Below the pieces are notes generated by a model that was not told the DNA's origin, did no database searches, and was given only the letters and a program-made list of their open reading frames with translations. 19,110 nucleotides of DNA from a bacterium. GTDB taxonomy: Bacteria; RBG-13-66-14. The stretch is from assembly GCA_035528375.1 (NCBI GenBank), contig DATKYS010000135.1, positions 1-19,110 of the forward strand, written 5' to 3'. The stretch's first letter is position 1. The number at the start of each line of letters is the position of its first letter. The position numbers were made by a program, and so were the translations under genes. Of this stretch, positions 1-19,067 are shown piece after piece.

Positions 1-2927
1 TCGGCATAGACTGGCAGTTCGGTCCCGATCCCTTCAAGCGCTTCCTGATTGACAACGGCTTCCTCGACATCGGTTACACCCCCGGCATCATCCGCCGCGC
101 CATAAACAGCTACTCCGATTACGGGTGGTTTCCTCAGGCCATCAACCTGGCGCGGTTCTACGTAGATACGTATCCCGACTCCCCCGACGCGCCCAAGGTT
201 TTCTACGACATCGTCAAGTTCTACGGCTCCTGGGCCGAGACGCTGATCATCAAGGACCGCGAGGACCCCGCCCAACTGGCGTGGCTCGAACAGGAGACCA
301 AGCGCCTCGAGGCCCTGCAGAACCAGGTTCGTGACGAGTTCATCAGCCGTTACGCGGTGGGCAGCGCCTGGTACGAAGCGAACCGGGACAACCCCGAGGC
401 CCTGGCGAACGCCCGGGCCGCCCTGGCGCGCTCCCTCTACGACGTGGCCATCTACACCTACATCGTGGGCTACGACGCCGAGGAGGCGAAGGACCTGGTT
501 ACGGCCAAGAAGAACTACGCGAGGGTCATCACCTACCTGGAGCAGTACCTGCTCGACTACCCCCTCGAGGAGGATGCGTACAAAGCCAACTTCTACCTGG
601 CGATGAGCTACTACAGCGTCGGGGATTTCGCTCATGCGGGGGACAACTTCATGCTCACCGCCGGCACCTCCAGTGTGGACCTCTACCCCGATAAGACCGA
701 GTTCAAGGAGGAGAGCCTCTGGTACGCAGCCGCGGCGTACAAGTTCGGCTCCGACGAGTTCGAGAAGGCCCGCTGGGAGGAGAAGATCAACCAGCCCCAG
801 GTGAAGCTGACTCTGGATCAGCAGCGCGAGAAGACCCCGAGCAAGAATCCCCGGGATGTCCTGCCCGACGTGTGCAAGAAGTTCGTCTGGGCCAGCCGGG
901 AGTACGGTCGCATCTTCAAGGAGGGAAACCCCGAGGCCGAGCACGATCTGGAGAAGCTCTACTACTGGGAAGGCAACCTGATGATGGCCTTCGACTGCTT
1001 CGACTCCGGACGCGACGCCCTGGCGCGGATCGTGGACCTCGATTTCGTGCCGGCCTACGATCCCGATCCGGCGAAGATGAACCGGGCCCAGATCGCCTTC
1101 CGCATCGGCGAGAGCTGGTTCGACCAGCACTACTACTGGCGCGCCGCCGAGTGGTACCGTAAAGCCGCCGCCCTGGCCGATACCGGCTCAGAGCTCGAGG
1201 AGATGGCCCTCAACAACGCCTCCGCCGCCGAGATAACCGCCGTGGACCTGGGCGTGCCCCGGGTGGAGCTCGCCGAGGGTGAGGAGGAGGTGGAACTGCC
1301 GCCGGAAATCCGCGCCCAGCTCGAGGAAAGCGCCAAGAGCTACCTCCGCGTGGCGCGGGAGAACCTCTACAACTCGGACATCGCCGTCAAGGCCTTCAAC
1401 AACGCCGGGTACATCTACGCCGCCCAGCTCAAGGACTACGAGCAGGCCATCGTGGCCTACCATGAGCTTTCCGAGAATTTCCCCGACCACCCCGACGTGG
1501 ACAAGGCGCTCTTCTCCGAGGCGCTGGCCTACTTCGAGCTCGAGGAGTGGTACGAGGCCGCCGGTATCTTCGAGCGGGTGCTGGACAACGCCATAACACC
1601 GACGGATCAGGAACCCGCGGCGCTTTTCAAGGCCGGCGAGTGCTACGAAAAGCTGAAGAACTGGCCCAACGCCCAGCGCACCTTCACCCTCTACGGCCAA
1701 CGGTACAGGGAAACCGGCGTCCCCGACCAGGTTGTGGATTCCTTCTACCGCGCCGGTCACGCCTCGCTGAAGCTGGGCGACGTGGAGACCGGTCGCAATC
1801 TCCTCTTCGAGTGCACCAAGGTGTACGAGGACTTCAGCACGAGGCCCGGCATCGAGGTGAACTTCGACATCCCGGCCAAGGCCTACGTGGAGATAGGCGA
1901 CCTCCTCTTCGACGACTACGCGGCGATCACCCTCGAGGGCGATCTGTTGGATCTGGACCCCCTGGTGCAGACGGCGACGAAGAAGTACGGGATGATGGAC
2001 GAGCTCGTCGAGATCTACGGCCGGGCCTCCAGGGCCGTGGACCTCGAGGTGAACCTCTCCGCCCGCTACAAGGCCGGCCTGGTTTACGAGCAGTTCTACC
2101 TCACCGTCAGCCGGATGAAGATCAGTTTCGCCCAGTTGGACAAGCTGATAGAGGAAAATCCGGATTACGCCACCGAGATAGAAGATATCGTTATGGAGCA
2201 GTTGGACGTGTTCAAATCGCAGATGGACACCTGGGCGGCGGAAAAAGGTCTCGACAAGGCGATCCAGGTCTACGAGTTGATCCTCATCAACGCCCAGGAG
2301 CGCGGCGAGACCAACCAGTGGGTCCAGAAGGCCAAGGAGCGCCTGGTGGACCTGGTTCCGCAGTCATACATGCTCTATCCGCCCATCGGGGTCAAGACCG
2401 GCATGGACAACCTGGGCGCCAGCATCTGGGACTATTCGGGCGTGCGCTTTTACTCCCGGACCGTGGACATCGCGGCTATGGCTCCGGAGCCCGAGATAAT
2501 AGTGGAGCCTCTCATCGAGGAGACGCCCATCGGGGAGACGCCCATCGGGGAGACGCCCATCGGGGAGACCCCCATCGAGGAAACGCCCATCGGGGAGACG
2601 CCCATCGAGGAGACGCCCATCGAGGAGACGCCCATCGAGGAAACGCCCATCGAGGAGACGCCCATCGAGGAAACGCCCATCGAGGAGACCCCCATCGAGG
2701 AAACGCCCATTGATGAAACGCTCATCGAGGAAACGCCCATCGAGGAAACGCCCATCGAGGAAACGCCCATTGATGAAACGCCCATTGAGGAGACGCCCGA
2801 TGTTACCCCGTCGGAGGACACCGAGCCTGTCGAGGAGAGTGTTGACACCGAACCGACCGCAGACGGCACAGACACTGCTCCAGTAGAGGAAACTGCGACC
2901 GAAGACACAACCGAGCCGATTGATTAA
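1..2927 (+). CDS. TPR-repeat protein with C-terminal ETPIE pentapeptide tail (5' partial)
   Basis: The frame is open from the left edge (first full codon at base 3) to TAA at 2925-2927, so the start lies outside the window and 974 residues are visible. The body is alpha-helical and full of TPR-like helix pairs rich in Tyr, Ala and Glu (for example around residues 470-590, with DYEQAIVAYHELSENFP and ALFKAGECYEKLKNWPNAQR). From residue 839 to 933 the chain becomes 19 tandem E-T-P-I-(E/G/D) pentapeptides, followed by a Glu/Thr/Pro-rich acidic end. TPR proteins are usually protein-interaction scaffolds. Its position upstream of secreted proteins and an ExbB/ExbD motor set suggests a periplasmic or envelope scaffold of that machine, comparable to the TPR proteins of Myxococcus Glt/Agl systems; this role is inferred. 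No signal peptide can be judged because the N-terminus is missing. The acidic tail could be a flexible, surface-facing or wall-spanning linker. Confidence 0.85.
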   Translation, partial: GIDWQFGPDPFKRFLIDNGFLDIGYTPGIIRRAINSYSDYGWFPQAINLARFYVDTYPDSPDAPKVFYDIVKFYGSWAETLIIKDREDPAQLAWLEQETKRLEALQNQVRDEFISRYAVGSAWYEANRDNPEALANARAALARSLYDVAIYTYIVGYDAEEAKDLVTAKKNYARVITYLEQYLLDYPLEEDAYKANFYLAMSYYSVGDFAHAGDNFMLTAGTSSVDLYPDKTEFKEESLWYAAAAYKFGSDEFEKARWEEKINQPQVKLTLDQQREKTPSKNPRDVLPDVCKKFVWASREYGRIFKEGNPEAEHDLEKLYYWEGNLMMAFDCFDSGRDALARIVDLDFVPAYDPDPAKMNRAQIAFRIGESWFDQHYYWRAAEWYRKAAALADTGSELEEMALNNASAAEITAVDLGVPRVELAEGEEEVELPPEIRAQLEESAKSYLRVARENLYNSDIAVKAFNNAGYIYAAQLKDYEQAIVAYHELSENFPDHPDVDKALFSEALAYFELEEWYEAAGIFERVLDNAITPTDQEPAALFKAGECYEKLKNWPNAQRTFTLYGQRYRETGVPDQVVDSFYRAGHASLKLGDVETGRNLLFECTKVYEDFSTRPGIEVNFDIPAKAYVEIGDLLFDDYAAITLEGDLLDLDPLVQTATKKYGMMDELVEIYGRASRAVDLEVNLSARYKAGLVYEQFYLTVSRMKISFAQLDKLIEENPDYATEIEDIVMEQLDVFKSQMDTWAAEKGLDKAIQVYELILINAQERGETNQWVQKAKERLVDLVPQSYMLYPPIGVKTGMDNLGASIWDYSGVRFYSRTVDIAAMAPEPEIIVEPLIEETPIGETPIGETPIGETPIEETPIGETPIEETPIEETPIEETPIEETPIEETPIEETPIEETPIDETLIEETPIEETPIEETPIDETPIEETPDVTPSEDTEPVEESVDTEPTADGTDTAPVEETATEDTTEPID
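2517..2801 (+). repeat. 15-bp tandem repeat array, 19 units, inside the TPR gene
   Basis: Nineteen consecutive 15-base units of the form GAG-GAR-ACG-CCC-ATC encode (E/G/D)-E-T-P-I. Units 2-4 and 6 begin with Gly (GGG), units 14 and 18 begin with Asp (GAT), unit 14 has Leu instead of Pro, and unit 19 ends in Asp instead of Ile. Most units differ from their neighbours by one or two bases, mainly GAG/GAA, so the array grew by recent in-frame duplication. Because the unit length is a multiple of three, the other frames are also open across it, which creates false antisense ORFs. It is a coding minisatellite, not a CRISPR. Confidence 0.97.
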
Positions 2928-3123
2928 AAAAAAGGAAATCTCGGTCGGTTCCCGAGCGTAAATGAGTGTGGACCCCCTCAGTGAGAGGTGGTTGCGGCGA
3001 GTTATTGAAAACAGGGCAACTGAAGAAACCCGAGGCACTCCAATAACCGCTGCCAGCGCGTGACGGCAAGCCCGACGGGGATTGTCGGTACGCACCGAGG
3101 TTCGCAATCGGGGGAAGGAAAAG

Positions 3124-3783
3124 ATGCCGTTCACCGTCAAGTCCCGTCTGATACTGGCCCTTTTCGCCCTCCTGCTGCTCGGGCCGATTGCCCTGGACAA
3201 CGTCCACGCCCAGTACGCGGAACTCACCGCGGAGCAGATCGAGGCCCTCAAACAGGCCTGGCACGTCACCAACGCCCGCCAGGATGGCACGTCCTGGACG
3301 ACGGCGGACTACAACGACAACGATTGGGGCACGGCCTACGTGGGCGCGTTCAAGGACGGTCTTTCCGGCGCCCGGAACCAGGTGTACGGGTGGCCGGACG
3401 CCGACGCGGAGTGGATCTGGGCCCGCAGCGGGGTTACCGCTTACTTCCGCCGCGAGTTCGGTCTGCCGCGCAACCTCCTCAACGACGAGGACTCCGACAT
3501 CCAGGAGCACTTCATCGTACGGATAACGGCCAACAACAACTACCAGTTTTACGTCAACGGCGTCCTGGTGCACCAGGACTCGAGTGAGAACGAAGATGAT
3601 TGGATGACCTACGATCAGATAGATGTGACGGAGTACCTGGACGTCGGTGACAACGTGTTCGCCATCGAGGCGGTCAACACGGACGATCCGGAAAACTACG
3701 GTCTTTTATTCGACGCCGAGCTCGTGGTGACCGGCAGCGGCGGCTACATAGCCCCGCCTCCGGTGCGCCAGGGCGGGTGTTAG
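3124..3783 (+). CDS. Secreted protein with galactose-binding-like jelly-roll domain
   Basis: The product is 219 aa. ATG 3124 is chosen because a purine-rich Shine-Dalgarno (GGGGGAAGGAAAAG) directly precedes it and the N-terminus is then a clean Sec signal peptide (basic MPFTVKSR, hydrophobic core, cleavage near HAQ at residue 30). An in-frame upstream GTG at 3082 would bury this signal. Residues about 45-202 look like the beta-sandwich found at the N-termini of GH2 and alpha-L-rhamnosidase enzymes: W-T followed by D-W, then AYFRREF (106-112), ITANNNYQFYVNG (134-146), a Y-D-x-x-D-V-T-x-Y-L-x-x-G-x-N motif (163-177) and N-x-x-x-x-x-x-GLLF. There is no catalytic domain, so it is probably a binding or adhesin module in the periplasm or on the surface. 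It follows the TPR gene by 196 bases and precedes the motor genes on the same strand. The ligand is unknown. Confidence 0.85.
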   Translation: MPFTVKSRLILALFALLLLGPIALDNVHAQYAELTAEQIEALKQAWHVTNARQDGTSWTTADYNDNDWGTAYVGAFKDGLSGARNQVYGWPDADAEWIWARSGVTAYFRREFGLPRNLLNDEDSDIQEHFIVRITANNNYQFYVNGVLVHQDSSENEDDWMTYDQIDVTEYLDVGDNVFAIEAVNTDDPENYGLLFDAELVVTGSGGYIAPPPVRQGGC

Positions 3784-3800
3784 CTGGGGGTTAACCTTCG

Positions 3801-4256
3801 ATGAATACGCCACGGAAGGGTGACTGCGACCGAAGGTATATAAGCCTCTCGGTTTTAATACCGCTGGTCCTCGCGGCGATCCCATGGTCGGCTTTCGCCC
3901 AGGACTCCGACGTGGACGCCGTGGTGGAGCTCGAGATCTTCGGACGGAGAATGGCGCCGTCCCAGATGTCCTTCATCCTGCGCACGGATCCCGAGTTTGA
4001 GAAGGTGATGCTGCGCCAGACCTATGCCAGCCAGATACTCAACCCCATTGACAAGGAGGAGTTCGAGGAGGGCATCGCCGTGAGTCAGCGGTCCATTAAA
4101 AACCCCTTCCTCTGGCTGGCCACGGGCGCAGGCATAGCCTCCGGTATAACCGCCGGTTACATGGACGCCAATTCCGAGACCCTCAACGCCAACTGGCTGG
4201 CGGGTACGGCGGGCGTGGCGCTCCTGGCTGCGGCGGTCATCATGCTCGTGGATTAG
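3801..4256 (+). CDS. Small exported membrane protein of unknown family
   Basis: The product is 151 aa, starting 17 bases after the previous stop with a weak GGGGG upstream. I do not recognise the family. Residues 12-34 form a signal peptide or N-terminal membrane segment with a likely cleavage after AFA (33). A charged region (35-100) follows, then two short apolar segments, about 102-121 (rich in Gly and Ala) and 131-150, separated by a small polar loop. The protein stops right after the second segment. This resembles small outer-membrane- or inner-membrane-anchored accessory proteins with a C-terminal hairpin. It lies between the jelly-roll protein and the ExbB-like gene on the same strand, so it is a candidate accessory subunit of the motor complex. 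That role is inferred from position only. Confidence 0.75.
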   Translation: MNTPRKGDCDRRYISLSVLIPLVLAAIPWSAFAQDSDVDAVVELEIFGRRMAPSQMSFILRTDPEFEKVMLRQTYASQILNPIDKEEFEEGIAVSQRSIKNPFLWLATGAGIASGITAGYMDANSETLNANWLAGTAGVALLAAAVIMLVD

Positions 4257-4382
4257 GACTTATCGTATTCGACCGGGCGATCACACACATCCACCACGGC
4301 CGCGAAAGGAGACAAACCTGTTCAGCCGGAAAGGCCGCCGGAGGCTAAAACCCAACAACCCACAAACCGAGGAAAGGAATCC

Positions 4383-5006
4383 ATGTACAGACTCATTGAC
4401 TCCTTCGCCGACGGTGGGGACTTCATGTGGATCATCCTCTTCGTTGCGATGCTCGACCTGACCTTCATCCTCGAGCGGACCTACTTCGTGGTCTTCAAAT
4501 CGAGCATCAACACCAAGACCTTCATCGCCGAGCTGGAAAAGCTCATCCAGAACCGCAACATCGAGCGGGCCATCGCCCTGTGCAACACGACCAACGCTGC
4601 GCTGGCCCAGGTCTTGCGGGAGATCCTCAAGCACCACTCGGGGTCCGGGCGCGACATGCAGGTGGCCGCGGACGCCAAGACCCTCGAGGTCATCCCCCGG
4701 CTCGAGAAGCGCACCGGCTACCTGGACATGCTGGCACAGATCGCGACCCTCCTCGGACTGCTGGGTACGATCTCCGGCCTGATGACGGCGTTCGACGCCA
4801 TTACCGTAGCGAACCCGGAGGATTCGGCCCGGCTCCTGTCGGAGGGTATCTCCATCGCCATGTTGACCACGATGTTCGGTCTGGTGGTAGCCGTGCCGAC
4901 CCTGGCCGCGGCGGCTTGGCTGAAAGACAGAACTCGGAAGATCGTCAACGATATAGACGAGTTCTCGGTGAAGATCACCAACCTCATCACCCAGATGAAA
5001 GGATAG
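4383..5006 (+). CDS. MotA/TolQ/ExbB-family proton channel protein
   Basis: The product is 207 aa. ATG 4383 follows a good Shine-Dalgarno (GAGGAAAGGAA). The family layout is clear: an N-terminal membrane helix (about 14-34), a cytoplasmic domain (40-110), then two long helices. Helix 2 (about 114-137) carries the signature LLGLLGTISGLMTAF and helix 3 (about 154-180) carries GISIAMLTTMFGLVVAVP. Thr129 and Thr162/163 match the polar residues that line the proton path in TolQ and ExbB. The protein forms the pentameric stator around an ExbD/TolR dimer and converts the proton motive force into movement of a periplasm-spanning partner. The next two genes encode ExbD-type partners, the first only 3 bases downstream. 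The association with AgmX-type proteins rather than TonB or TolA suggests an AglR/AglQ-like role, which is inferred. Confidence 0.95.
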   Translation: MYRLIDSFADGGDFMWIILFVAMLDLTFILERTYFVVFKSSINTKTFIAELEKLIQNRNIERAIALCNTTNAALAQVLREILKHHSGSGRDMQVAADAKTLEVIPRLEKRTGYLDMLAQIATLLGLLGTISGLMTAFDAITVANPEDSARLLSEGISIAMLTTMFGLVVAVPTLAAAAWLKDRTRKIVNDIDEFSVKITNLITQMKG

Positions 5007-5009
5007 GCC

Positions 5010-5615
5010 ATGGCTTTCGGACCGAGTGCGGCCAGACGGACCGGTGAGGAGAAGAACGTGGGTGATGAGTACCTCGTCCCGATCATGGGCCTGATGACAT
5101 TGCTGATCCCCCTGCTCTTGATGTCCGCCGTTTTCGTCACCACGGTAGCACTACAGGTCACTCTGCCACCCCAGGCCGCGGCGAGCGGAGCCGGAGCGGG
5201 AGGAATGGGTGGGGTCACCAAGATATTGATGGTCGGGATGAGCGCCGACAAGGGCTTCATCATCACCAACGACAAGGGCGTACTGCCAGCCTTTCCCGAA
5301 CGGTCCGGGGCCGACAGAAACTGGATCCCGAAGGTCGGCGGGTCGTTCGACTTCGCCACGCTCCGTGAAGTGCTGCTGGAAAAAGTCAAAAAGCTGCCCC
5401 AGTACCAGGACCACGAGGAAGTTTACCTTGCCATTCAGGACAACATACCCTTCACCGATGTCATCAACCTCATGGACACCGTCCGCGGAGACGTGAACGT
5501 CATCGAGGTCAAGACCGACGAGGACGCCGCCAAATACAGCGTCGAGAAAGGTCAGAAAGCTTACGTCGCGACCCTTTTCCCCAGCGTGATATTCGGTGGA
5601 GCAGTGCCGCGCTGA
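5010..5615 (+). CDS. ExbD/TolR-family protein lacking the intramembrane Asp (first copy)
   Basis: The product is 201 aa. ATG 5010 lies 3 bases after the ExbB-like stop, with AAAGGA upstream. It has a short cytoplasmic N-terminus, one membrane helix (about residues 22-44) and a periplasmic domain whose end (YLAIQDNIPFTDVINLMDTV, about 148-167) matches the conserved ExbD/TolR core strand and helix. In ExbD and TolR the helix begins P-x-x-D, and this Asp is essential for proton translocation. Here the matching stretch reads P24-I-M-G27, so Gly takes the place of Asp, and Pro34 interrupts the helix. A Gly/Ala linker (57-68) and an insertion (about 77-120) separate the helix from the core domain, making it longer than the usual ~140 aa. 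It probably pairs with the next protein as a non-protonatable subunit of a heterodimeric ExbD pair. Confidence 0.88.
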   Translation: MAFGPSAARRTGEEKNVGDEYLVPIMGLMTLLIPLLLMSAVFVTTVALQVTLPPQAAASGAGAGGMGGVTKILMVGMSADKGFIITNDKGVLPAFPERSGADRNWIPKVGGSFDFATLREVLLEKVKKLPQYQDHEEVYLAIQDNIPFTDVINLMDTVRGDVNVIEVKTDEDAAKYSVEKGQKAYVATLFPSVIFGGAVPR

Positions 5616-5635
5616 CCGTTGAAAGGAGGTGAGAT

Positions 5636-6163
5636 ATGCCAGGCGCACAGACCCCGAGCAAGTACCTGAAGTTCAAACCACACCACGCGAGGAAGAAGAG
5701 TGAGTCGTCGTCCCTGAGAATCACATCGCTGATGGACATGATGACCATCGTGCTCGTGTTCCTTCTCAAAACCTTCTCCGCCCAGGGCGACCTGTCGGCC
5801 ACTGCGGCCCACCTGTCGTTGCCGAAGAGTGACTCCATGGCCATCCCCGGGGTCATTGACCGCGTCGCCGTCGGCTCGAACGCCATCTACTTCCTCGAAG
5901 AGGAGATCATGCCCACAGACGAGGCCATCAGCTCGAAGGACATCGTGATCAAGCCTCTGAAAGCCAGGATGGAGACGCGCGTCGAGGCGCTTCAGGAGAC
6001 GATGCGTACGGCAGGTCGTGAAGCAGAACCGGCGAAAATCCTGATTTTGGCGGACAAGAACCACTACTTCAGCCTGATCAAGAAGGTGGTGGCGACGGCG
6101 GCGAACGCCGGGTACATGAACATCACCCTCGCTGCGATTCAGGACACCGGTAAGTGGGAGTGA
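5636..6163 (+). CDS. ExbD/TolR-family protein with conserved Asp (second copy)
   Basis: The product is 175 aa. ATG 5636 has a near-perfect Shine-Dalgarno (AAAGGAGGT), stronger than that of the first ExbD copy. Residues 27-50 form the single membrane helix, starting L-R-I-T-S-L-M-D34, so the proton-carrying Asp is present. The periplasmic part ends in the conserved ExbD/TolR block around ILILADKNHYFSLIKKVV and NITLAA. The cytoplasmic N-terminus is strongly basic (KFKPHHARKKS). It lies 20 bases after the first ExbD and 20 bases before the FHA/AgmX gene. Tandem TolR-like partners for one TolQ-like protein are known from Myxococcus gliding (AglX and AglS with AglR). Here this copy should supply the protonatable residue of the pair. 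Confidence 0.93.
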   Translation: MPGAQTPSKYLKFKPHHARKKSESSSLRITSLMDMMTIVLVFLLKTFSAQGDLSATAAHLSLPKSDSMAIPGVIDRVAVGSNAIYFLEEEIMPTDEAISSKDIVIKPLKARMETRVEALQETMRTAGREAEPAKILILADKNHYFSLIKKVVATAANAGYMNITLAAIQDTGKWE

Positions 6164-6183
6164 GGGTAACCTAAGGAGAAAAA

Positions 6184-7533
6184 ATGCCAGAAACACCAGT
6201 CAAGCCAGTGCTGGGCCTGGTGATCTCCCGGGGGGACAGGATAATCAAACGCCTGATCCCCGAGCGGGACACGATCACCGTGGGCCAGGCACCGGACTGC
6301 GATGTCGTGCTGCAGCACGATCCCGCGATCGCGCACAGGCACGTACTGGCCGTCCAGCGGGGCGACGAGTACGAGTTCACCATCGCCGAGGACATGAACG
6401 GCAAGATCAGCGTGGGTGACTCGACCATATCGCTCCGCGACCTGAGGGTCTGCGGTTTCCTGCCCCGGGTCAAAAACGGCTACACGTTCCGGGCGTCGCG
6501 TTCCAAGAAAGGCCAGATTCGCATCTCCGACATAACCATCCACTTCGGCTACTTCACCCCGACGGTGCAGCAGATCGCCGGTGAGCCCCGGCTGGCCGAT
6601 TCCATCACCTCCGGTTTCGCCCTAGAGCCGGAGGACAAGGTCTTCGCCGGATTCTTCGCCGCTTCGATGCTGTTGGGCGGCCTTTTCGGCTGGCTCACCA
6701 CCGTCGTCGGACCTCACGATCCCTACGCGGCACTCGAGGACCGGCCCCGACTGCGGCAGATCCTCGTAGCCGAGGAGTCGGACGTGATCATAGACCCTTC
6801 GGCGCTGGGCGCCGGGGAGGGTGAGGAGATAGTGGCCGACATCACCTCCTCCGGGACCGGAACCGGTGGGGGCGGCACCGGCAGCGGCCCTTCGGCCGGA
6901 GACATAGTCGGCGCGGCCGGACTGACGGCCGGCGGCGGCGCGGCGGACCTTCTCATAACCGCCATCACCTCGAACGTTGTCGGTGGAGCCGGCGGCGTGA
7001 TGGGTCTCTCCGGCGGCGAAGGTACCTCTAGCCTCTTCTCGGTCGGCGGAACGGTCGGGGTTCAGGGCGGAGGCGCCGGGGCCGGCGGGGCCGGTGAAGG
7101 CGGCGGTTTCGCCGGTGGTGGACTGGGAGGTGCCGGTGGACCGACCATCGGACGTACCGGGGTCGGCGGCGCCGAAGGCGGCCCGACCATCGTCAAGGCC
7201 CGGCCGGTAAGCCCCCGGGCGACCGTGATGGACAAGGGCGCCGGTGTATCCAGCGAGGCCATCAACGAGATTTCCAGCTACATCCGCCAGCGGGGCGGAC
7301 AGATCAAGTCCATCTACGAGAAGTACCTGAAGCTGAACCCGAACCTCCAGGGTCGTATCGTCGTCAAGGTCACCTTCTCCAACGGCGTGGTTTCCAACGT
7401 CTCGGTGACCGGTAACGATACGGGGAATACCCAGATGGAATCCGAGATTGTGGGCGTGGTTCGAGGCTGGGCCGTCGGCGGCGTACAGGGCCAGGTGACC
7501 CTGTCGGTGCCGTTCGTGCTCTCGCCTAAGTAG
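6184..7533 (+). CDS. FHA-like, single-TM, AgmX/PglI C-terminal energy-transducer protein
   Basis: The product is 449 aa. ATG 6184 follows CTAAGGAGAAAAA, a strong Shine-Dalgarno. Domains in order: an FHA-like cytoplasmic beta domain (about 10-125, with ITVGQAPDCDVVLQ at 31-44, A-H-R-H at 50-53 and M-N-G-K at 71-74); a membrane helix (about 153-175); a Gly/Ser-rich periplasmic linker (about 205-340); and an AgmX/PglI-type C-terminal domain (about 355-449, with IRQRGGQIKSIYEKYLKLNP, LQGRIVVKVTF and G-V-V-S-N-V). The topology matches TonB-like transducers and Myxococcus GltG/GltJ-type proteins: cytoplasmic sensor, helix to contact the motor, long linker, periplasmic contact domain. Two canonical phosphothreonine-contacting FHA residues are changed (Arg to Gln35, Ser to Ala50), so phosphopeptide binding may be lost. 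It is the last gene of the motor operon, before the terminator at 7595. Confidence 0.9.
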   Translation: MPETPVKPVLGLVISRGDRIIKRLIPERDTITVGQAPDCDVVLQHDPAIAHRHVLAVQRGDEYEFTIAEDMNGKISVGDSTISLRDLRVCGFLPRVKNGYTFRASRSKKGQIRISDITIHFGYFTPTVQQIAGEPRLADSITSGFALEPEDKVFAGFFAASMLLGGLFGWLTTVVGPHDPYAALEDRPRLRQILVAEESDVIIDPSALGAGEGEEIVADITSSGTGTGGGGTGSGPSAGDIVGAAGLTAGGGAADLLITAITSNVVGGAGGVMGLSGGEGTSSLFSVGGTVGVQGGGAGAGGAGEGGGFAGGGLGGAGGPTIGRTGVGGAEGGPTIVKARPVSPRATVMDKGAGVSSEAINEISSYIRQRGGQIKSIYEKYLKLNPNLQGRIVVKVTFSNGVVSNVSVTGNDTGNTQMESEIVGVVRGWAVGGVQGQVTLSVPFVLSPK

Positions 7534-7594
7534 CCCGTCCCGCGGTTTACACCCGGGCGGGTTATGCACTCATATCCCGGATCGGGTATTCCCA

Positions 7595-7626
7595 AAGGGG
7601 GGCCGTGAAAGCGGCCCTCCTTATTA
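7595..7626 (+). terminator. Intrinsic terminator of the motor operon
   Basis: An 11-bp stem (bases 7595-7605 with 7612-7622, one G-U pair) closes a TGAAAG loop and is followed by TTATTATT. It lies 62 bases after the FHA/AgmX stop and separates this operon from the GYF protein gene, which has its own promoter. Confidence 0.8.
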
Positions 7627-8027
7627 TTAGAGATCATTCGCACCAAAGGGCTGGTCGAGGAGTACGCCCAGGCGTGGGATAGTGGGATCGGGCGTTCATT
7701 TCCAGGGGACGTTCTTATTGGCGCCTTGAACGAGAGTTTTAGACGCCTGCCTTGACCCCTTGCGAACGACAACGAGGGTTTTATGCAACTTGTCTGATAC
7801 TGCGGCGGGTCGCTTTAGCCGGCCCGTTCGAGAGCTCTTTACTCCGCCTCCCCCCGCCGCCGCCCGCGTGGGGACGGCGTGATTAAAACGCCCCCGTCCG
7901 TAGCAGCTAATTCAGGTACGGGCGTTTCCGGTCTACGACGAACGGTTGATTCCCCTTTCAACACCGGGCACAATAGGGGGTGCCTGTGCGTATTGTTATG
8001 GGAATACGGGGGGAATGAACGGGGGAC
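7627..8027. other. Non-coding interval, no gene recognised
   Basis: About 400 bases carry no ORF with convincing coding features on either strand. An imperfect inverted repeat is present (GGACGGCGT at 7872-7880 against ACG-CCC-CCGTCC at 7888-7899), and CCGTA/TACGGGCGTTT-type matches extend to about 7930. There is no clear T-tract, Shine-Dalgarno or coding-like stretch. It ends in a good promoter at 8028. The long spacer could hold a regulatory RNA or upstream control sites, but nothing specific supports that. Confidence 0.4.
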
Positions 8028-8056
8028 TTGACCGAAGGCGCGACGTGGGCTAGACT
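8028..8056 (+). promoter_or_regulatory. Sigma70-like promoter for the GYF/AgmX gene
   Basis: A -35 box TTGACC (8028-8033), a 17-base spacer and a -10 box TAGACT (8051-8056) lie in good register. Transcription should start near 8063, giving a leader of about 35 bases that contains the GGGAG Shine-Dalgarno (8087-8091) of the ATG at 8099. Confidence 0.7.
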
Positions 8057-8098
8057 ATCCCGTGGAAGAAACGCGCCGATTATCACGGGAGCTTCCAG

Positions 8099-9286
8099 AT
8101 GGCCGACGAGGAAAAGAAACTCTTCCTGAAGATAGAGGGCAAGCAGTACGGACCCGTCTCGGTGGAGACGGTCAGGAAGTGGATTGACGAGAACCGGATG
8201 GGTTCGGACGACTACGTCCGCGTCTCCACCCAGAAGGTCTGGGTTCAGGCCAAGAACGTCGAGCACCTGAACGCCATCTTCCACAAGTCCAAGACCAAGG
8301 CCCGGACCGAGGCCTTCACGAGCTGGATAGACGCCGTCGGTTCCGGGTCGGCCACCATCCTCACCTTCGAGGGGCAGAAGGCCGAGCGCGACAGGATTCT
8401 CACCGAGCAGCGCCGGCTCGAGTCCGAGCGCCAGGAGCTCGAAGAGCTGGCCAAACAGGCGGAGATGACCAAGGAGCAGGCCGCCGCGCTCGATTCGCAG
8501 CGCGCGGACCTGGATAGGCGGGCCAAGGAGCTCGAGGCCGAGGCCGACGAGATAATGAACATGGAGCGGGCGGTCAAGAAGCGCCGCAAGCGCCAGACCA
8601 TCCTGGTCGTCGCCATCATCGCCGTCGTCGTCGCCGGGGGGACCTGGCTCACCATCGAGCTCATCGGCGCACGGACGGCCACCGAGGAGCTGAGCGCCGA
8701 GCTCAGGGAGCGGATCAAGGGGATAGACACCCGGCTGGCGGCCATAGACAGCCGTTTGAAGGACATTGACGAGGCCATTGACCTTGCCCGCGCCGCTGGG
8801 AAAGACGAGCTGGTCGCCTCCCTGGAGGCGGAGCGCTCCCAGTTGGAGGAACAGCGCACGGAGCTCAAAGTGCAGAGGGAGCAGCTCCACGCCGAGGCGC
8901 CCGAGGTGGATTCCGGCGGACCCCACGTCCAGGGGCGCACGGGGAAGATCGGGGTCGCCGGACCGGTGCAGATAACCGGCGAGGGTGCGGGTGATCCGGG
9001 CCGTTCACAGACCGAGATCCGCACTGCCGTCTCCTCGGCCCTCGGGTCGGCGCGACAGCAGTACAACGAGCTTTTGAAGACCAACCCCGATGCCAGCGGC
9101 TCCATCAGCATCATCTTTGGCATCCAGCCGGACGGCTCCGTGGAGAACGCCACCTTCTCCAACAGTACCCTTCCCGATACCGGCCTGATCGGACCCATTC
9201 TAAACGGAATCCGCGGCTTGAATTTCTCCGCCATCGAGGGCGGTTCGGTCAGGGTTACCTATCCCCTCTCCCTGACCCCCCAGTAG
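8099..9286 (+). CDS. GYF_2-like, coiled-coil, single-TM protein with AgmX-like C-terminal domain
   Basis: The product is 395 aa. ATG 8099 has GGGAG seven bases upstream. Domains in order: a GYF_2/DUF4339-like module (about 8-58, Y-G-P-V at 17-20 with W48 in K-V-W-V-Q-A); a long cytoplasmic coiled coil (about 93-160, heptads of Glu, Arg, Leu); a basic stop-transfer KKRRKRQ; a membrane helix (about 167-190); a periplasmic coiled coil (about 195-268); a Gly/Pro linker; and a C-terminal domain (about 300-395) resembling that of the FHA protein (A-R-Q-Q-Y-N-E-L-L-K-T-N-P, G-S-I-S-I-I-F-x-I, D-G-S-V). In Myxococcus, GltJ/AgmX likewise combines cytoplasmic regulatory modules, including GYF, with a TM and a periplasmic transducer domain. 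This is therefore probably a second transducer for the ExbB/ExbD motor encoded upstream, transcribed separately. Confidence 0.88.
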   Translation: MADEEKKLFLKIEGKQYGPVSVETVRKWIDENRMGSDDYVRVSTQKVWVQAKNVEHLNAIFHKSKTKARTEAFTSWIDAVGSGSATILTFEGQKAERDRILTEQRRLESERQELEELAKQAEMTKEQAAALDSQRADLDRRAKELEAEADEIMNMERAVKKRRKRQTILVVAIIAVVVAGGTWLTIELIGARTATEELSAELRERIKGIDTRLAAIDSRLKDIDEAIDLARAAGKDELVASLEAERSQLEEQRTELKVQREQLHAEAPEVDSGGPHVQGRTGKIGVAGPVQITGEGAGDPGRSQTEIRTAVSSALGSARQQYNELLKTNPDASGSISIIFGIQPDGSVENATFSNSTLPDTGLIGPILNGIRGLNFSAIEGGSVRVTYPLSLTPQ

Positions 9287-9427: not shown

Positions 9428-9823
9428 GTGTGGCGGATCTTGCTCCCGATTCTCCCGTTGCTCCTCGTCTGCTGCGGCGGGTCCGCTCCACAGGACGTTT
9501 ACGATGATTTCGTCCGGGCGAACAACGCCCGGGATGCCGAGGGGCTCGTAGACTGTCTGTGGTTCCCGGCGTGGGACGGTCTCTCCCCGGACGAGGTGGA
9601 GAGTGCGCGACGGGAACTCATCCCCACCGCCGAGCGTGAGTACTTCCTGGACGAGATCGTGGACCACGAGGTAATCCAGGTCGAGGAACGCTCCGAGGAC
9701 GAGCGCCGGGTGTTGGCCCGGCAGGTGTTCCTCGACCCCTACGGCAACCGGTGCTCGGATCAGTACTCCTTCACCCTCGTCCGCCGCAACGGCGCCTGGT
9801 TCATCTACATCCCCGCGGAGTAG
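9428..9823 (+). CDS. Small NTF2/SnoaL-like probable lipoprotein
   Basis: The product is 131 aa. GTG 9428 is chosen because the GAGGAGG at 9412-9418 is well spaced from it. The nearby ATG 9421 is in a different frame, and no other in-frame start fits. The N-terminus (WRILLPILPLLLVCCGGS) is a short export signal with Cys15 and Cys16. The lipobox is not canonical because the residue before the Cys is Val or Cys rather than Gly, Ala or Ser, but a lipoprotein is likely. The rest (D-V-Y-D-D-F-V-R-A-N-N-A-R-D at about 23-36, ending N-G-A-W-F-I-Y) is typical of small cystatin/NTF2-fold DUF4878 or SnoaL-like secreted domains. It lies 7 bases upstream of the M23 peptidase gene, so the two are probably co-transcribed and act in the envelope. 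No specific ligand can be named. Confidence 0.75.
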   Translation: MWRILLPILPLLLVCCGGSAPQDVYDDFVRANNARDAEGLVDCLWFPAWDGLSPDEVESARRELIPTAEREYFLDEIVDHEVIQVEERSEDERRVLARQVFLDPYGNRCSDQYSFTLVRRNGAWFIYIPAE

Positions 9824-9830
9824 AGGCGGA

Positions 9831-10850
9831 ATGCCCCTTTCCCGACACATCTCCGTGGTCATCGTGCCCCACACCGGCGGTGCGGCGCGGCCGTACCTCG
9901 TCAGGCGCTGGTTGCTCTTGGGGGCCATCGTCTTCATCGCCGCCCTGGTCCTGGGACTGGGCGGGACGGCGCTGTACTACGCCCTTTTATACAACGACAC
10001 GGTCCACGATTTGAAGCCCCTCGAGGAGCGCGGCGACTTCCTCGCCCGGCGGGTGTCCGAGTACAAAGAGGCGGCGATGATTTCCGGCTCCGAGCTCTCT
10101 GCGCTCCGGGCCGCCGCCGAACGTGACAAACGGGCCTACGAGCGCTCCATGCTCAACATCCGCCTCCAGCTCACCCAGCTGCAGAACTTTTATAAAAACC
10201 TGAGAATCATGGCCGGATTCAAGCTGGAGGAGGAGCAGGCTTCGGATCTCCTGGGGCAGGGCGGGGGGACGGGCCTCCCCCTCGGGCGATCCGAGACCCC
10301 CAGGTCCGGGGATGAACGGGTGGCCGTCACCACCTTCGGGCTGAACTTCATCAACCACGACACCGAGGAATACGCCGCCGCGGAGGCCGCGCTGCTATCC
10401 GACATGGCCGGCCTCTCCCAGGACATGTACCACCTGGTCCGGGAGCTGGAAAAGCGCATCTCCACCATCAGCCCCGACGTTCCCTACGGTGTCCCCGTCC
10501 AGGGGGTAATCACCAGCTACTTCGGCGAGCCGCGCTGGCACGGCTCCCACAAGGGCCTGGACATCGCGGCGCCCATCGGGACCCCGGTCCGCACACCGGC
10601 CTCAGGCGTCGTCGTCGAGTCCGGTTTCAAGGGGGCCTACGGGCTGACCATCTGGGTTGACCACGGGAATGGGTATCAGACCCGCTACGCCCATCTGAGC
10701 TCCGTGGCCTACCAGGTGGGCGAGCGGGTGAACGCCGGTCAGGTTGTGGGTTGCATCGGCATCACCGGCGCCACCACGGGACCCCACCTCCACTACGAGG
10801 TCCGGCTGAACGGCATCGCCGTGGACCCCATCTACTACATGGTCCAGTAG
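9831..10850 (+). CDS. Membrane-anchored M23 (LytM) family metallopeptidase
   Basis: The product is 339 aa. ATG 9831 has GAGGCGG just upstream. An N-terminal membrane anchor (about residues 24-52) is followed by a coiled coil (about 60-125), a Gly/Pro-rich spacer (about 145-160), a second helical segment (190-220) and an M23 domain (about 225-339). All metal and catalytic residues are present: H240 and D244 in H-K-G-L-D, H288 in Y-A-H-L, and H319 and H321 in H-L-H. M23 enzymes of this type cleave peptidoglycan peptide cross-links. The anchor plus coiled coil resembles the NlpD/MepM-like periplasmic hydrolases used in growth, division or the placing of envelope machines. It follows the lipoprotein gene and ends in a TAG embedded in a GTAGGGGCGGGG repeat end. 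Confidence 0.93.
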   Translation: MPLSRHISVVIVPHTGGAARPYLVRRWLLLGAIVFIAALVLGLGGTALYYALLYNDTVHDLKPLEERGDFLARRVSEYKEAAMISGSELSALRAAAERDKRAYERSMLNIRLQLTQLQNFYKNLRIMAGFKLEEEQASDLLGQGGGTGLPLGRSETPRSGDERVAVTTFGLNFINHDTEEYAAAEAALLSDMAGLSQDMYHLVRELEKRISTISPDVPYGVPVQGVITSYFGEPRWHGSHKGLDIAAPIGTPVRTPASGVVVESGFKGAYGLTIWVDHGNGYQTRYAHLSSVAYQVGERVNAGQVVGCIGITGATTGPHLHYEVRLNGIAVDPIYYMVQ

Positions 10851-11027: not shown

Positions 11028-11630
11028 CTAGTCCGAGAACCCGGCCTTGATTTCCCCCCAGCTCATGGGCTGGACGGCGGTGTCCTCGGGCGTGCCCAGG
11101 AGGCGGAAGTAGACCGCTTCGTCCCATTGGTACCACTGGGAGTACAGGTTGCCGCCGGATTTCATACCCCACTTGCAGTTCTCGGCTTCCGTGCGGATTT
11201 CGAGCCAGAACGGCGTCCCGCCGTCAACGTGTTGGGGCACGATGTTCAGCCGGTAATAGTAGACGCGTAGATACCCCATGTAATCGAATCCGGTGTAGGT
11301 CTCCTCCACGTCGTCGCCGCCGGTTGTGGTCCTGAAGTAGTAGGCGCCGGGCATGCCGTACTGGTCGTAGCGCACGTTCACGTAGAACAGCCTGGGATGG
11401 GCGGGCTCCTCGGGGTAGTAAAAGGCCCAGCATTCCACGGCCTCGAGCTCCGCGTCCGTCTCCAGGGTGAAGTCGTCCTGGGTGTAGTACTCGCCGTATA
11501 TCCCCTTGCCGCCGTGTATGAACTGATAGTCGTAGCATTGGTCCCACAGGACCTGGGGGTCGTCGTCGGCCGGGGCGGGAACGGCCGAAAACGCGACGAC
11601 TACGAGTAAAAGAATCGTAATCCTTGTCAT
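11028..11630 (-). CDS. Secreted beta-rich protein of unknown function (paralogue A)
   Basis: The product is 200 aa. ATG at 11630 has a strong GGAGG seven bases upstream. A Sec signal peptide (MTRITILLLVVVAFSAVPAPA) is followed by an acidic mature chain starting DDDPQ. The mature region is rich in Tyr, Trp and Glu, with alternating beta-like strands. Q-D-D-F-T-L-E-T-D-A-E-L-E-A-V-E-C-W and Y-G-M-P-G resemble the beta-sandwich of many secreted 'DDFTL...W' proteins, often with other anchors. Cys residues occur at D-Q-C-Y-D-Y, V-E-C-W-A and E-N-C-K-W. I cannot assign a function. A close paralogue (roughly 80-85% identical over the mature part, by eye) is at 18435-19067 on the same strand. It is transcribed alone, probably from the promoter at 11781-11809, and converges on the M23 gene. 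Confidence 0.85.
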   Translation of the reverse strand: MTRITILLLVVVAFSAVPAPADDDPQVLWDQCYDYQFIHGGKGIYGEYYTQDDFTLETDAELEAVECWAFYYPEEPAHPRLFYVNVRYDQYGMPGAYYFRTTTGGDDVEETYTGFDYMGYLRVYYYRLNIVPQHVDGGTPFWLEIRTEAENCKWGMKSGGNLYSQWYQWDEAVYFRLLGTPEDTAVQPMSWGEIKAGFSD

Positions 11631-18434: not shown

Positions 18435-19067
18435 CTAATCCGAGTACCCCGCCTTGATTTCCCCCCAGCTCGCCGGTTCCACGTTGCTTTCCTCCGGCGT
18501 GCCCAGGAGGCGGAAGTAGGCCGCTTCGTCCCATTGGTACCACTGGGAGTACAGGTTGCCCGTAGTTTTGCTGCCCCACGTGCAGTTCTCGGCTTCCGTG
18601 CGGATTTCGAGCCAGAACGGCGTACCGGCTTCGATGTGGCAGGGCTCGATGTTCAATAAGTAGTGGTACAGGGGATGCCCGTGGTAATCGAATCCGGTGT
18701 AGGTCTCCTCCAGGTCGTCGCCTCCGGTTGTGGTCCTGAAGTAGTAGGCGCCGGGCATGCCGTACTGGTCGTAGCGCACGTTTACGTAGAACAGCCTGGG
18801 ATGGACGGGCTCCTCGGGGTAGTAATACGCCCAGCATTCTACGGCCTCGAGCTCCGCGTCCGTCTCCAGGGTGAAGTCGTCCTGGGTGTAGTACTCGCCG
18901 TATATCCCCTTGCCGCCGTTCATGAACAGGTAGTCGTAGCACTGGTCCCACAGGACCTGGGGTTCGTCGTCGGCCCGGCTCGGGGACGAAACGCCGATGG
19001 CGCCGGTGAAACCGAGCGCGGCCGAGAAGGCGACGGCGCAGAGCAAAAATGTTATCGTCCTGGTCAT
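18435..19067 (-). CDS. Secreted beta-rich protein of unknown function (paralogue B)
   Basis: The product is 210 aa. ATG at 19067 has GAAGG seven bases upstream. The signal peptide is longer than in paralogue A (MTRTITFLLCAVAFSA then about 14 residues, likely cleavage at S-R-A before DDEPQ). From there the mature chain is roughly 80-85% identical by eye to the protein at 11028-11630, including long identical blocks such as GKGIYGEYYTQDDFTLETDA and V-R-Y-D-Q-Y-G-M-P-G-A-Y-Y-F-R-T-T-T-G-G-D-D. Differences cluster around Y-H-G-H-P-L-Y-H-Y, where one residue is missing relative to A, and near the C-terminus. It has one extra Cys (E-P-C-H). Exported, function unknown, probably extracellular or outer-membrane-associated. 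The high identity points to a fairly recent duplication within a multi-copy family. The stop lies at the edge of the palindromic repeat cluster. Confidence 0.87.
   Translation of the reverse strand: MTRTITFLLCAVAFSAALGFTGAIGVSSPSRADDEPQVLWDQCYDYLFMNGGKGIYGEYYTQDDFTLETDAELEAVECWAYYYPEEPVHPRLFYVNVRYDQYGMPGAYYFRTTTGGDDLEETYTGFDYHGHPLYHYLLNIEPCHIEAGTPFWLEIRTEAENCTWGSKTTGNLYSQWYQWDEAAYFRLLGTPEESNVEPASWGEIKAGYSD

Follow-up and report, generated by a model that had tools for sequence, protein, structure and literature searches.

What machine is encoded by a cluster of motor-like genes in a deep, uncultured bacterial phylum, and what would such a machine move? The window analyzed here is one entire contig of 19,110 nucleotides (C135, DATKYS010000135.1) from a 2.63-Mb, 144-contig Coatesbacteria metagenome-assembled genome (G000; GCA_035528375.1), a member of f1, one of five families of the phylum (f1 to f5). 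Its first 9,286 nucleotides carry eight open reading frames on the + strand, at the positions given in the initial annotation: a TPR protein, a jelly-roll protein, a small exported protein, one ExbB/TolQ-like and two ExbD/TolR-like motor subunits, and two putative transducers ending in TonB/AgmX-type domains. From this gene set the initial annotation had proposed a machine related to the Agl/Glt system of Myxococcus, with its output left open. Our comparisons confirm that the machine is real and conserved, with its parts kept in order across many phyla. The most consequential observation, which goes beyond that proposal, is an asymmetry between the two ExbD subunits that form the putative axle of the motor.

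Kinship and conservation of the gene cluster

The motor ring subunit (ExbB; 4383-5006, +) matches PF01618 (MotA_ExbB) at 9.1e-24 and is 38% identical to Myxococcus-type AglR. In a tree of ExbB proteins, it falls into a 60-member clade (SH-aLRT 99) together with a Myxococcus-like AglR, an MXAN_3003-like motor, and the core-complex motors described below; outside this clade lie TolQ and ExbB of E. coli as well as the TonB motor encoded elsewhere in the genome. The presence of two ExbD/TolR paralogs is likewise confirmed, with ExbD1 (5010-5615, +; PF02472 (ExbD) at 6.4e-8) being of the AglQ type and ExbD2 (5636-6163, +; PF02472 at 2.4e-9) of the AglS type. Hidden Markov models (HMMs) of the Coatesbacteria transducers recover both GltG (AgmX-C, 2e-24) and GltJ (AgmX-C, 3e-14; GYF, 2e-7) in a Myxococcus-like reference genome, which was picked by a GltG score of 1093 bits (cut-off 650) and has a GltJ score of 866 bits (cut-off 450). 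No AglR, AglQ, or AglS entry turned up when PDB sequences were matched to the ExbB profile.

The searches place the motor in neither the Tol-Pal nor the TonB system, and the partner set of neither is found at the locus. Tol-Pal membership was rejected, as no TolB or Pal was recognized at the window locus and the tolQ and tolR models score far below their curated cut-offs. Membership in a TonB system was rejected as well: the locus holds no TonB operon parts and no receptor, and a separate operon encoding ExbB, ExbD, ExbD, and TonB is found on contig C74. The earlier statement that TonB, TolA, Pal, and a receptor are missing thus holds for this locus but not for the genome as a whole, which has the operon on C74 and two OmpA-domain genes elsewhere. 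In the TonB operon (G000:C74, locus L214; G001:C386, locus L213), which lies downstream of a receptor-like gene, both ExbDs carry the Asp discussed below. A further contig (G000:C129; L198, 4.3 kb) encodes two adjacent, apparently tandem secreted proteins with AgmX/TonB-like C-terminal domains beside a Clp-type ATPase gene and without a motor.

Within the phylum, the motor is present in 13 of the 14 genomes examined, the exception being a genome that is 70% complete, and the motor and transducers occur in the same order in all five families. The full order of TPR, small protein, ExbB, ExbD, ExbD, FHA/AgmX-C, and GYF/AgmX-C genes is kept in f1 and f3, and also in f5, where the TPR gene is partly masked; the f2 locus and a cut f4 contig show the motor and transducers only, and in one genome (G004) the GYF gene lies farther off on the opposite strand. 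Close relatives include Coatesbacteria bin961 (L098) and, within the same genus, Candidatus Coatesbacteria RBG_13_66_14 (L072); genes in relatives were called by a simple script, so that their start codons are approximate.

At least 582 related motors came out of a profile search over 84,980 species genomes. Among the best 80, which were kept for neighborhood comparison, the order of GltC/GltD-like TPR proteins, small protein, ExbB, ExbD, ExbD, and FHA-TonB_C protein recurs in Myxococcota, KSB1, Gammaproteobacteria, Nitrospirae, and Hyd24-12, and is partly kept in Bdellovibrionota and Fibrobacteres. The neighborhood is therefore conserved across this phylum and others rather than scattered. 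In KSB1, a 575-aa protein with a TonB-like transmembrane (TM) motif (SLVLH) follows directly after the cluster (L108:13170-14897).

Judged by its gene content and order, we identify this cluster as the Agl/Glt/Nfs "core complex," defined as the Group B genes gltC, gltD, gltE, gltG, aglR, aglQ, and aglS (PMC3169522); we found no literature report of a core complex in Coatesbacteria. Both pair an ExbB-ExbD-ExbD motor of the same clade with neighboring genes for large TPR proteins and for an FHA-TM-TonB_C protein, all clustered in one region. ExbB phylogeny, identity to AglR, recovery of GltG and GltJ, and gene order (PMC3169522) together bear out the proposed relationship to Agl/Glt. The Coatesbacteria cluster differs in coming from a new phylum, in the presence of a GltF-family protein, and in that no separate gltE gene is seen between the TPR and small-protein genes, as is also the case in KSB1; any genes upstream of the TPR gene lie beyond the end of the window contig. 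A cluster encoding vWA force transducers (PMC12204202) resembles it in combining TPR, TolQ-like, and two unlike TolR-like genes, but that transducer ends in a vWA fold, whereas both Coatesbacteria transducers end in TonB-like domains.

Constraining the f1 and f2 to f5 motors to form one group was weakly rejected (approximately unbiased test, p 0.026), with the caveat that this grouping was picked after the tree was seen and that the branches are long. Common descent of the f1 and f2 to f5 clusters, as opposed to horizontal replacement of the motor, may be read from the jelly roll, GYF transducer, and extended small protein that they share.

Loss of one axle aspartate and its possible coupling to the ring

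At the site of the proton-carrying aspartate, Asp25 in E. coli ExbD, the two window subunits differ. ExbD1 has Gly27 (codon 5088-5090, +) at the position of ExbD Asp25 and AglQ Asp28, and ExbD2 retains Asp34 (codon 5735-5737, +), the sole proton-carrying Asp of the pair. The ring subunit has lost an acid as well, with Ile158 (codon 4854-4856, +) at the position of E. coli ExbB Glu176.

This arrangement is widespread among related motors. Across 91 ExbD pairs, the residues at the Asp25 site (ExbD1/ExbD2) are Asn/Asp in 44, Asp/Asp in 38, Ser/Asp in 4, Gly/Asp and Ala/Asp in 2 each, and Asp/Ala in 1; no pair has lost both. Non-redundant motors (n=86) divide into 53 asymmetric ones, having lost one Asp, and 33 symmetric ones. 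The Asp-less subunit is of the AglQ type with a single exception (L095; Deltaproteobacteria bacterium CSMAG_2928), a reversed pair in which ExbD1 has Asp, ExbD2 has Ala, and the ExbB Glu is kept. The ExbB residue equivalent to Glu176 is Glu in 33/38 symmetric but only 1/53 asymmetric motors, the latter being the reversed Asp/Ala pair. For association with the ExbD1 state, this column ranks first among 209, with the residue one helical turn later a close second. In ExbD1 itself, a Pro 7 residues past the Asp site separates the symmetric and asymmetric classes completely, and the pore threonines of ExbB are kept in all motors but one. The f1 genomes G000, G001, G003, G004, and G006 have G, G, S, N, and N, respectively, at the ExbD1 site and I, I, I, K, and Q at the ExbB Glu176 site, a drift as expected of relaxed sites.

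The Asp/Glu pattern points to an axle that is a heterodimer and has a single working acid. ExbD1 and ExbD2, one copy each, would then sit together in the ExbB ring, with protons carried by the ExbD2 Asp only. The principal competing explanation for the axle is that the Asp-less ExbD1 is a non-motor accessory and that an ExbD2 homodimer does the work, as might be read from the retention of the ExbD2 Asp in all motors but one and from the drifting ExbD1 residues. ExbD1 is, however, kept in every cluster of the ExbD-pair set, and its strict TM-helix Pro together with the matching ExbB pore changes suggests that it sits in the pore, which leads us to regard the homodimer as the less likely arrangement, albeit a serious contender. 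Returning to the heterodimer, we tentatively propose, at slightly less than even confidence, that most core-complex motors form a distinct 5:2 class with an obligate heterodimeric axle, a single Asp, and a matching loss of the ExbB pore Glu, which would fire once where TolQR and ExbBD fire twice, and which in Coatesbacteria would drive a surface-polysaccharide machine with its own sugar-binding adapter.

In Myxococcus, the AglQ mutation D28N abolishes proton conductance (PMC3858216); most core complexes naturally have Asn, Ser, Gly, or Ala at this site of the matching subunit. We found no report of Asp-less AglQ homologs, in a literature search that did not cover subscription papers, including the original AglRQS and focal-adhesion ones. 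The stoichiometry of the motor, i.e., whether AglQ and AglS heterodimerize, is listed as unknown (PMC9389320), and the Asp/Glu pattern offers a direct test of such heterodimers. If one Asp is enough, models with two alternating protonation sites per axle would need a variant. In one sister genome (G002), ExbB and ExbD1 are found in a single frame (L023:10073-11119) that lacks the ExbB C-terminus and the ExbD1 TM region, which may reflect a genuine loss of some 190 bp or else a misassembly.

Transducers and envelope proteins

Directly downstream of the motor lies a GltG-like transducer (6184-7533, +; NF033768 at 3.9e-15, NF033760 at 1.6e-10), which stays under the NF033760 equivalog cut-off and is hence called GltG-like rather than an equivalog. 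Its FHA domain is weak by sequence, and an AlphaFold model made with 12 homologs predicts an FHA fold at the N-terminus (best Z 8.3, tied with many FHA domains), followed by a single TM helix, a disordered Gly-rich linker, and a C-terminal domain that superposes on the TonB/TolA C-terminal domain (1tol; Z 7.9, rmsd 2.8, 91 residues). These Z values are middling taken by themselves, and the sequence models concur with them. As read from the sequence (VGQAP...AHRH), the FHA domain has neither the Arg nor the Ser that is canonical for the phosphothreonine pocket, and phosphopeptide binding is therefore doubtful.

The second transducer (8099-9286, +) consists of a GYF_2 domain (PF14237, 3.1e-6), a coiled coil, a TM helix, another coiled coil, and a TonB/AgmX C-terminal domain (NF033768, 2.7e-16). 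Myxococcus GltJ (NF033761) shares the GYF domain, single TM helix, and AgmX/TonB C-terminal domain, but the window protein has no N-terminal zinc finger and has coiled coils flanking its TM helix. NF033761 matches its C-terminal domain only (2.8e-4, far under the cut-off), so the protein is alike in layout without being a GltJ equivalog, and as a whole it has no sequence match in the PDB. The FHA-like/TM/AgmX-C and GYF_2-like/TM/AgmX-C layouts first proposed for the two transducers are thereby upheld through the NF033768 and GYF_2 matches and, for FHA, the predicted fold.

The first gene of the window (3-2927, +) encodes a GltD-like TPR protein, probably an outer-membrane lipoprotein, with a match to TPR_6 (9.7e-8) and C-terminal TPIEE repeats; a 15-bp tandem repeat in 19 copies within the gene (2513-2798, +) encodes (I)EETP repeats. 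Its 5' part is truncated by the contig end. The full-length homolog in Ca. Coatesbacteria RBG_13_66_14 (L023:4699-8628) has 1309 aa and a lipoprotein-type signal. The window protein aligns to its f3 homolog at 3e-31, and a Myxococcota protein in the GltD position matches f3 TPR homologs down to 3e-61; direct matches to Myxococcus GltD are weak and TPR-driven (5e-5 and 1e-5). The GltC model matches an f3 TPR protein at 7.7e-11. Only the GltD-like gene is visible in the window, and in the sister genome (G002, L023) the complete 1309-aa gene is preceded by genes for a 307-aa protein, which we read as barrel-like, and a 912-aa TPR protein, with the GltC-like gene upstream.

The small exported protein (3801-4256, +), which carries an extra C-terminal hydrophobic segment, has no Pfam or NCBIfam match, and it aligns with a protein of 66-144 aa that occupies the corresponding position in other phyla. 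When an HMM of the non-Myxococcota small proteins was searched against 1128 targets, Myxococcus GltF came top after the known members, at a borderline E of 0.002, the next being 0.58. GltF has been assigned to the later Group A, restricted to Myxococcales and Bdellovibrionales (PMC3169522); the match makes it seem rather to belong to the ancestral core. According to PMC9389320 (citing Faure 2016), GltF carries a TonB box, and a conserved segment of the small proteins (ETVIKG, EVVIEG, VVELEIFG) is TonB-box-like, as judged by eye only.

Between the TPR and small-protein genes lies the gene for an exported jelly-roll protein (3124-3783, +). In f1 it is a separate gene, and in f3 and f5 the GltD-like TPR protein carries the jelly roll as a C-terminal fusion (E 4e-17 to 5e-12), which ties the two together. 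Its sequence matches are weak; the predicted fold, in agreement with the original call of a secreted jelly roll, matches GH2 and GH78 enzymes (226 PDB chains at E<=0.001). No catalytic domain is found in the protein, and we read the matched region as probably corresponding to the non-catalytic sugar-binding jelly roll of these enzymes, of the GH2 N-terminal type. The intact f1 jelly-roll proteins share Gly-Gly-Cys as their last residues.

Three additions to the core complex thus stand out, namely the GH2-type sugar-binding jelly roll, the second, GYF-TonB_C transducer, and the GltF-family protein with its hydrophobic tail; relative to Agl/Glt, the Asp-less ExbD1 is a further difference. Of the accessory proteins initially described as novel, the jelly roll is truly new, but the small protein is a member of the GltF family and the second transducer is laid out like GltJ.

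Proposed output and neighboring genes

Clues to the output come from genes that adjoin the machine elsewhere. In Coatesbacteria f3, a Wzz-like gene (TIGR03007, 8e-12; PF02706, 6e-10) and a Wzy_C/TPR gene adjoin it, a Wza-like gene lies downstream in ten Myxococcota loci (TIGR03027, 1e-31 in L074), and a Fibrobacteres locus has Wza and Wzc, with Wza and Wzy_C in L097. Within the set of loci searched, Wza-like matches are confined to eleven, and three lineages carry genes of the Wza, Wzz, or Wzy type beside the machine. The Myxococcus Agl-Nfs machine is an Agl-driven, Glt-like complex with a comparable Wza-type polysaccharide link, which moves the exported spore-coat polymer after its secretion (PMC3858216). 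The Coatesbacteria cluster differs from Agl-Nfs in lacking evidence of sporulation, in encoding the motor within the cluster, and in having the jelly-roll domain. On these grounds, and given that the jelly roll resembles sugar-binding domains and is fused to the TPR protein in f3 and f5, the most likely output would be the handling of surface polysaccharide, which we favor over motility.

We hold it to be reasonably probable that the locus encodes an Agl/Glt/Nfs-type trans-envelope machine with a heterodimeric one-Asp axle that handles surface polysaccharide. Proton flow would cause the TonB domains of the GltG- and GltJ-like transducers to extend cyclically across the peptidoglycan toward the outer membrane and contact the GltF-like and TPR proteins there, which would hold surface polysaccharide via the jelly roll and move, arrange, or anchor it in an Nfs-like manner; gliding would be a derived use and not required. 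In Myxococcus, AglR binds both GltG and NfsG, and AglRQS has to conduct protons (PMC3858216); for TonB-like domains, contact with partners in the outer membrane across the wall is presumed (PMC5349195). Such a role would extend the core complex into a deep uncultured phylum and tie it to polysaccharide assembly, which bears on the question, left open in PMC3169522, of what core complexes do in non-gliding bacteria.

Several points weigh against this account. The f2 to f5 motors of the same phylum have Asp in both ExbDs; the Asp state changed only 4-5 times on the tree, leaving an independent-pairs test too few pairs for significance, and other changes inherited on the same branches may share in the Asp/Glu coupling. 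Heterodimerization of the ExbDs is deduced from sequence, as is the function of the machine in Coatesbacteria. The jelly-roll model has a mean pLDDT of 63. Finally, the window and its family f1 have no polysaccharide genes next to the machine, which is followed by a small secreted protein and then an M23 peptidase, and the polysaccharide link is therefore extrapolated to the window.

Among other functions, a gliding motor that travels along the cell, adheres to the surface, and thereby propels the cell forward as in Myxococcus would account for the homology to AglRQS, GltC, GltD, GltF, GltG, and the GltJ-like protein, and the genome encodes MglB (NF052242, 4e-29) beside a small GTPase reading like MglA. 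MglA and MglB are, however, widespread and not specific to gliding. Moreover, neither GltE nor GltA, GltB, GltH, GltK, or the giant GltI is seen at the locus (whole-genome searches with the families of the latter five were not run), and the core complex, which occurs in bacteria not known to glide, is unlikely to drive motility alone (PMC3169522). We therefore consider gliding improbable. Less probable still is a role in outer-membrane maintenance, a Tol-Pal-like pulling together of outer membrane and wall, e.g., at division. The TolQ/TolR-like motor, tol-pal YbgF/CpoB model matches in the TPR proteins, and the adjoining M23 wall hydrolase would fit such a role, but the YbgF match is of the generic TPR kind, the motor clusters with AglR and not TolQ, and neither the low TolQ/TolR scores nor the absence of TolB and Pal from the locus is in its favor. 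TonB-like nutrient import through an outer-membrane receptor, to which the TonB-type C-terminal domain on each transducer might point, is very improbable, given that no receptor is nearby and that a classical TonB operon exists separately on C74, preceded in G001 by a receptor-like gene.

Two genes downstream of the machine may be associated with it. A small secreted protein of 131 aa (9428-9823, +) without a family match adjoins the machine across the genus and is a candidate member, and the M23 peptidoglycan endopeptidase that follows (9831-10850, +; PF01551, 2.9e-33) is a neighbor kept in the family (L022, L023, L025, L027) and a possible cell-wall partner. The gap between the FHA and GYF transducer genes measures 565 bp (7534-8098), compared with about 350-400 bp in sister genomes. 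No Rfam RNA family was found in the window, this gap included; terminator- and promoter-like counts in the window are not above those of shuffled sequences, with no clear terminator in the gap. Further downstream, the window encodes two members (11028-11630, -; 18435-19067, -) of a group of closely similar secreted proteins of about 200 aa, to which L023:16359-16958 and L214:4291-4890 also belong; the copy tested has no Pfam or NCBIfam match, and the family has at least three copies in this genome and is also present in the sister.

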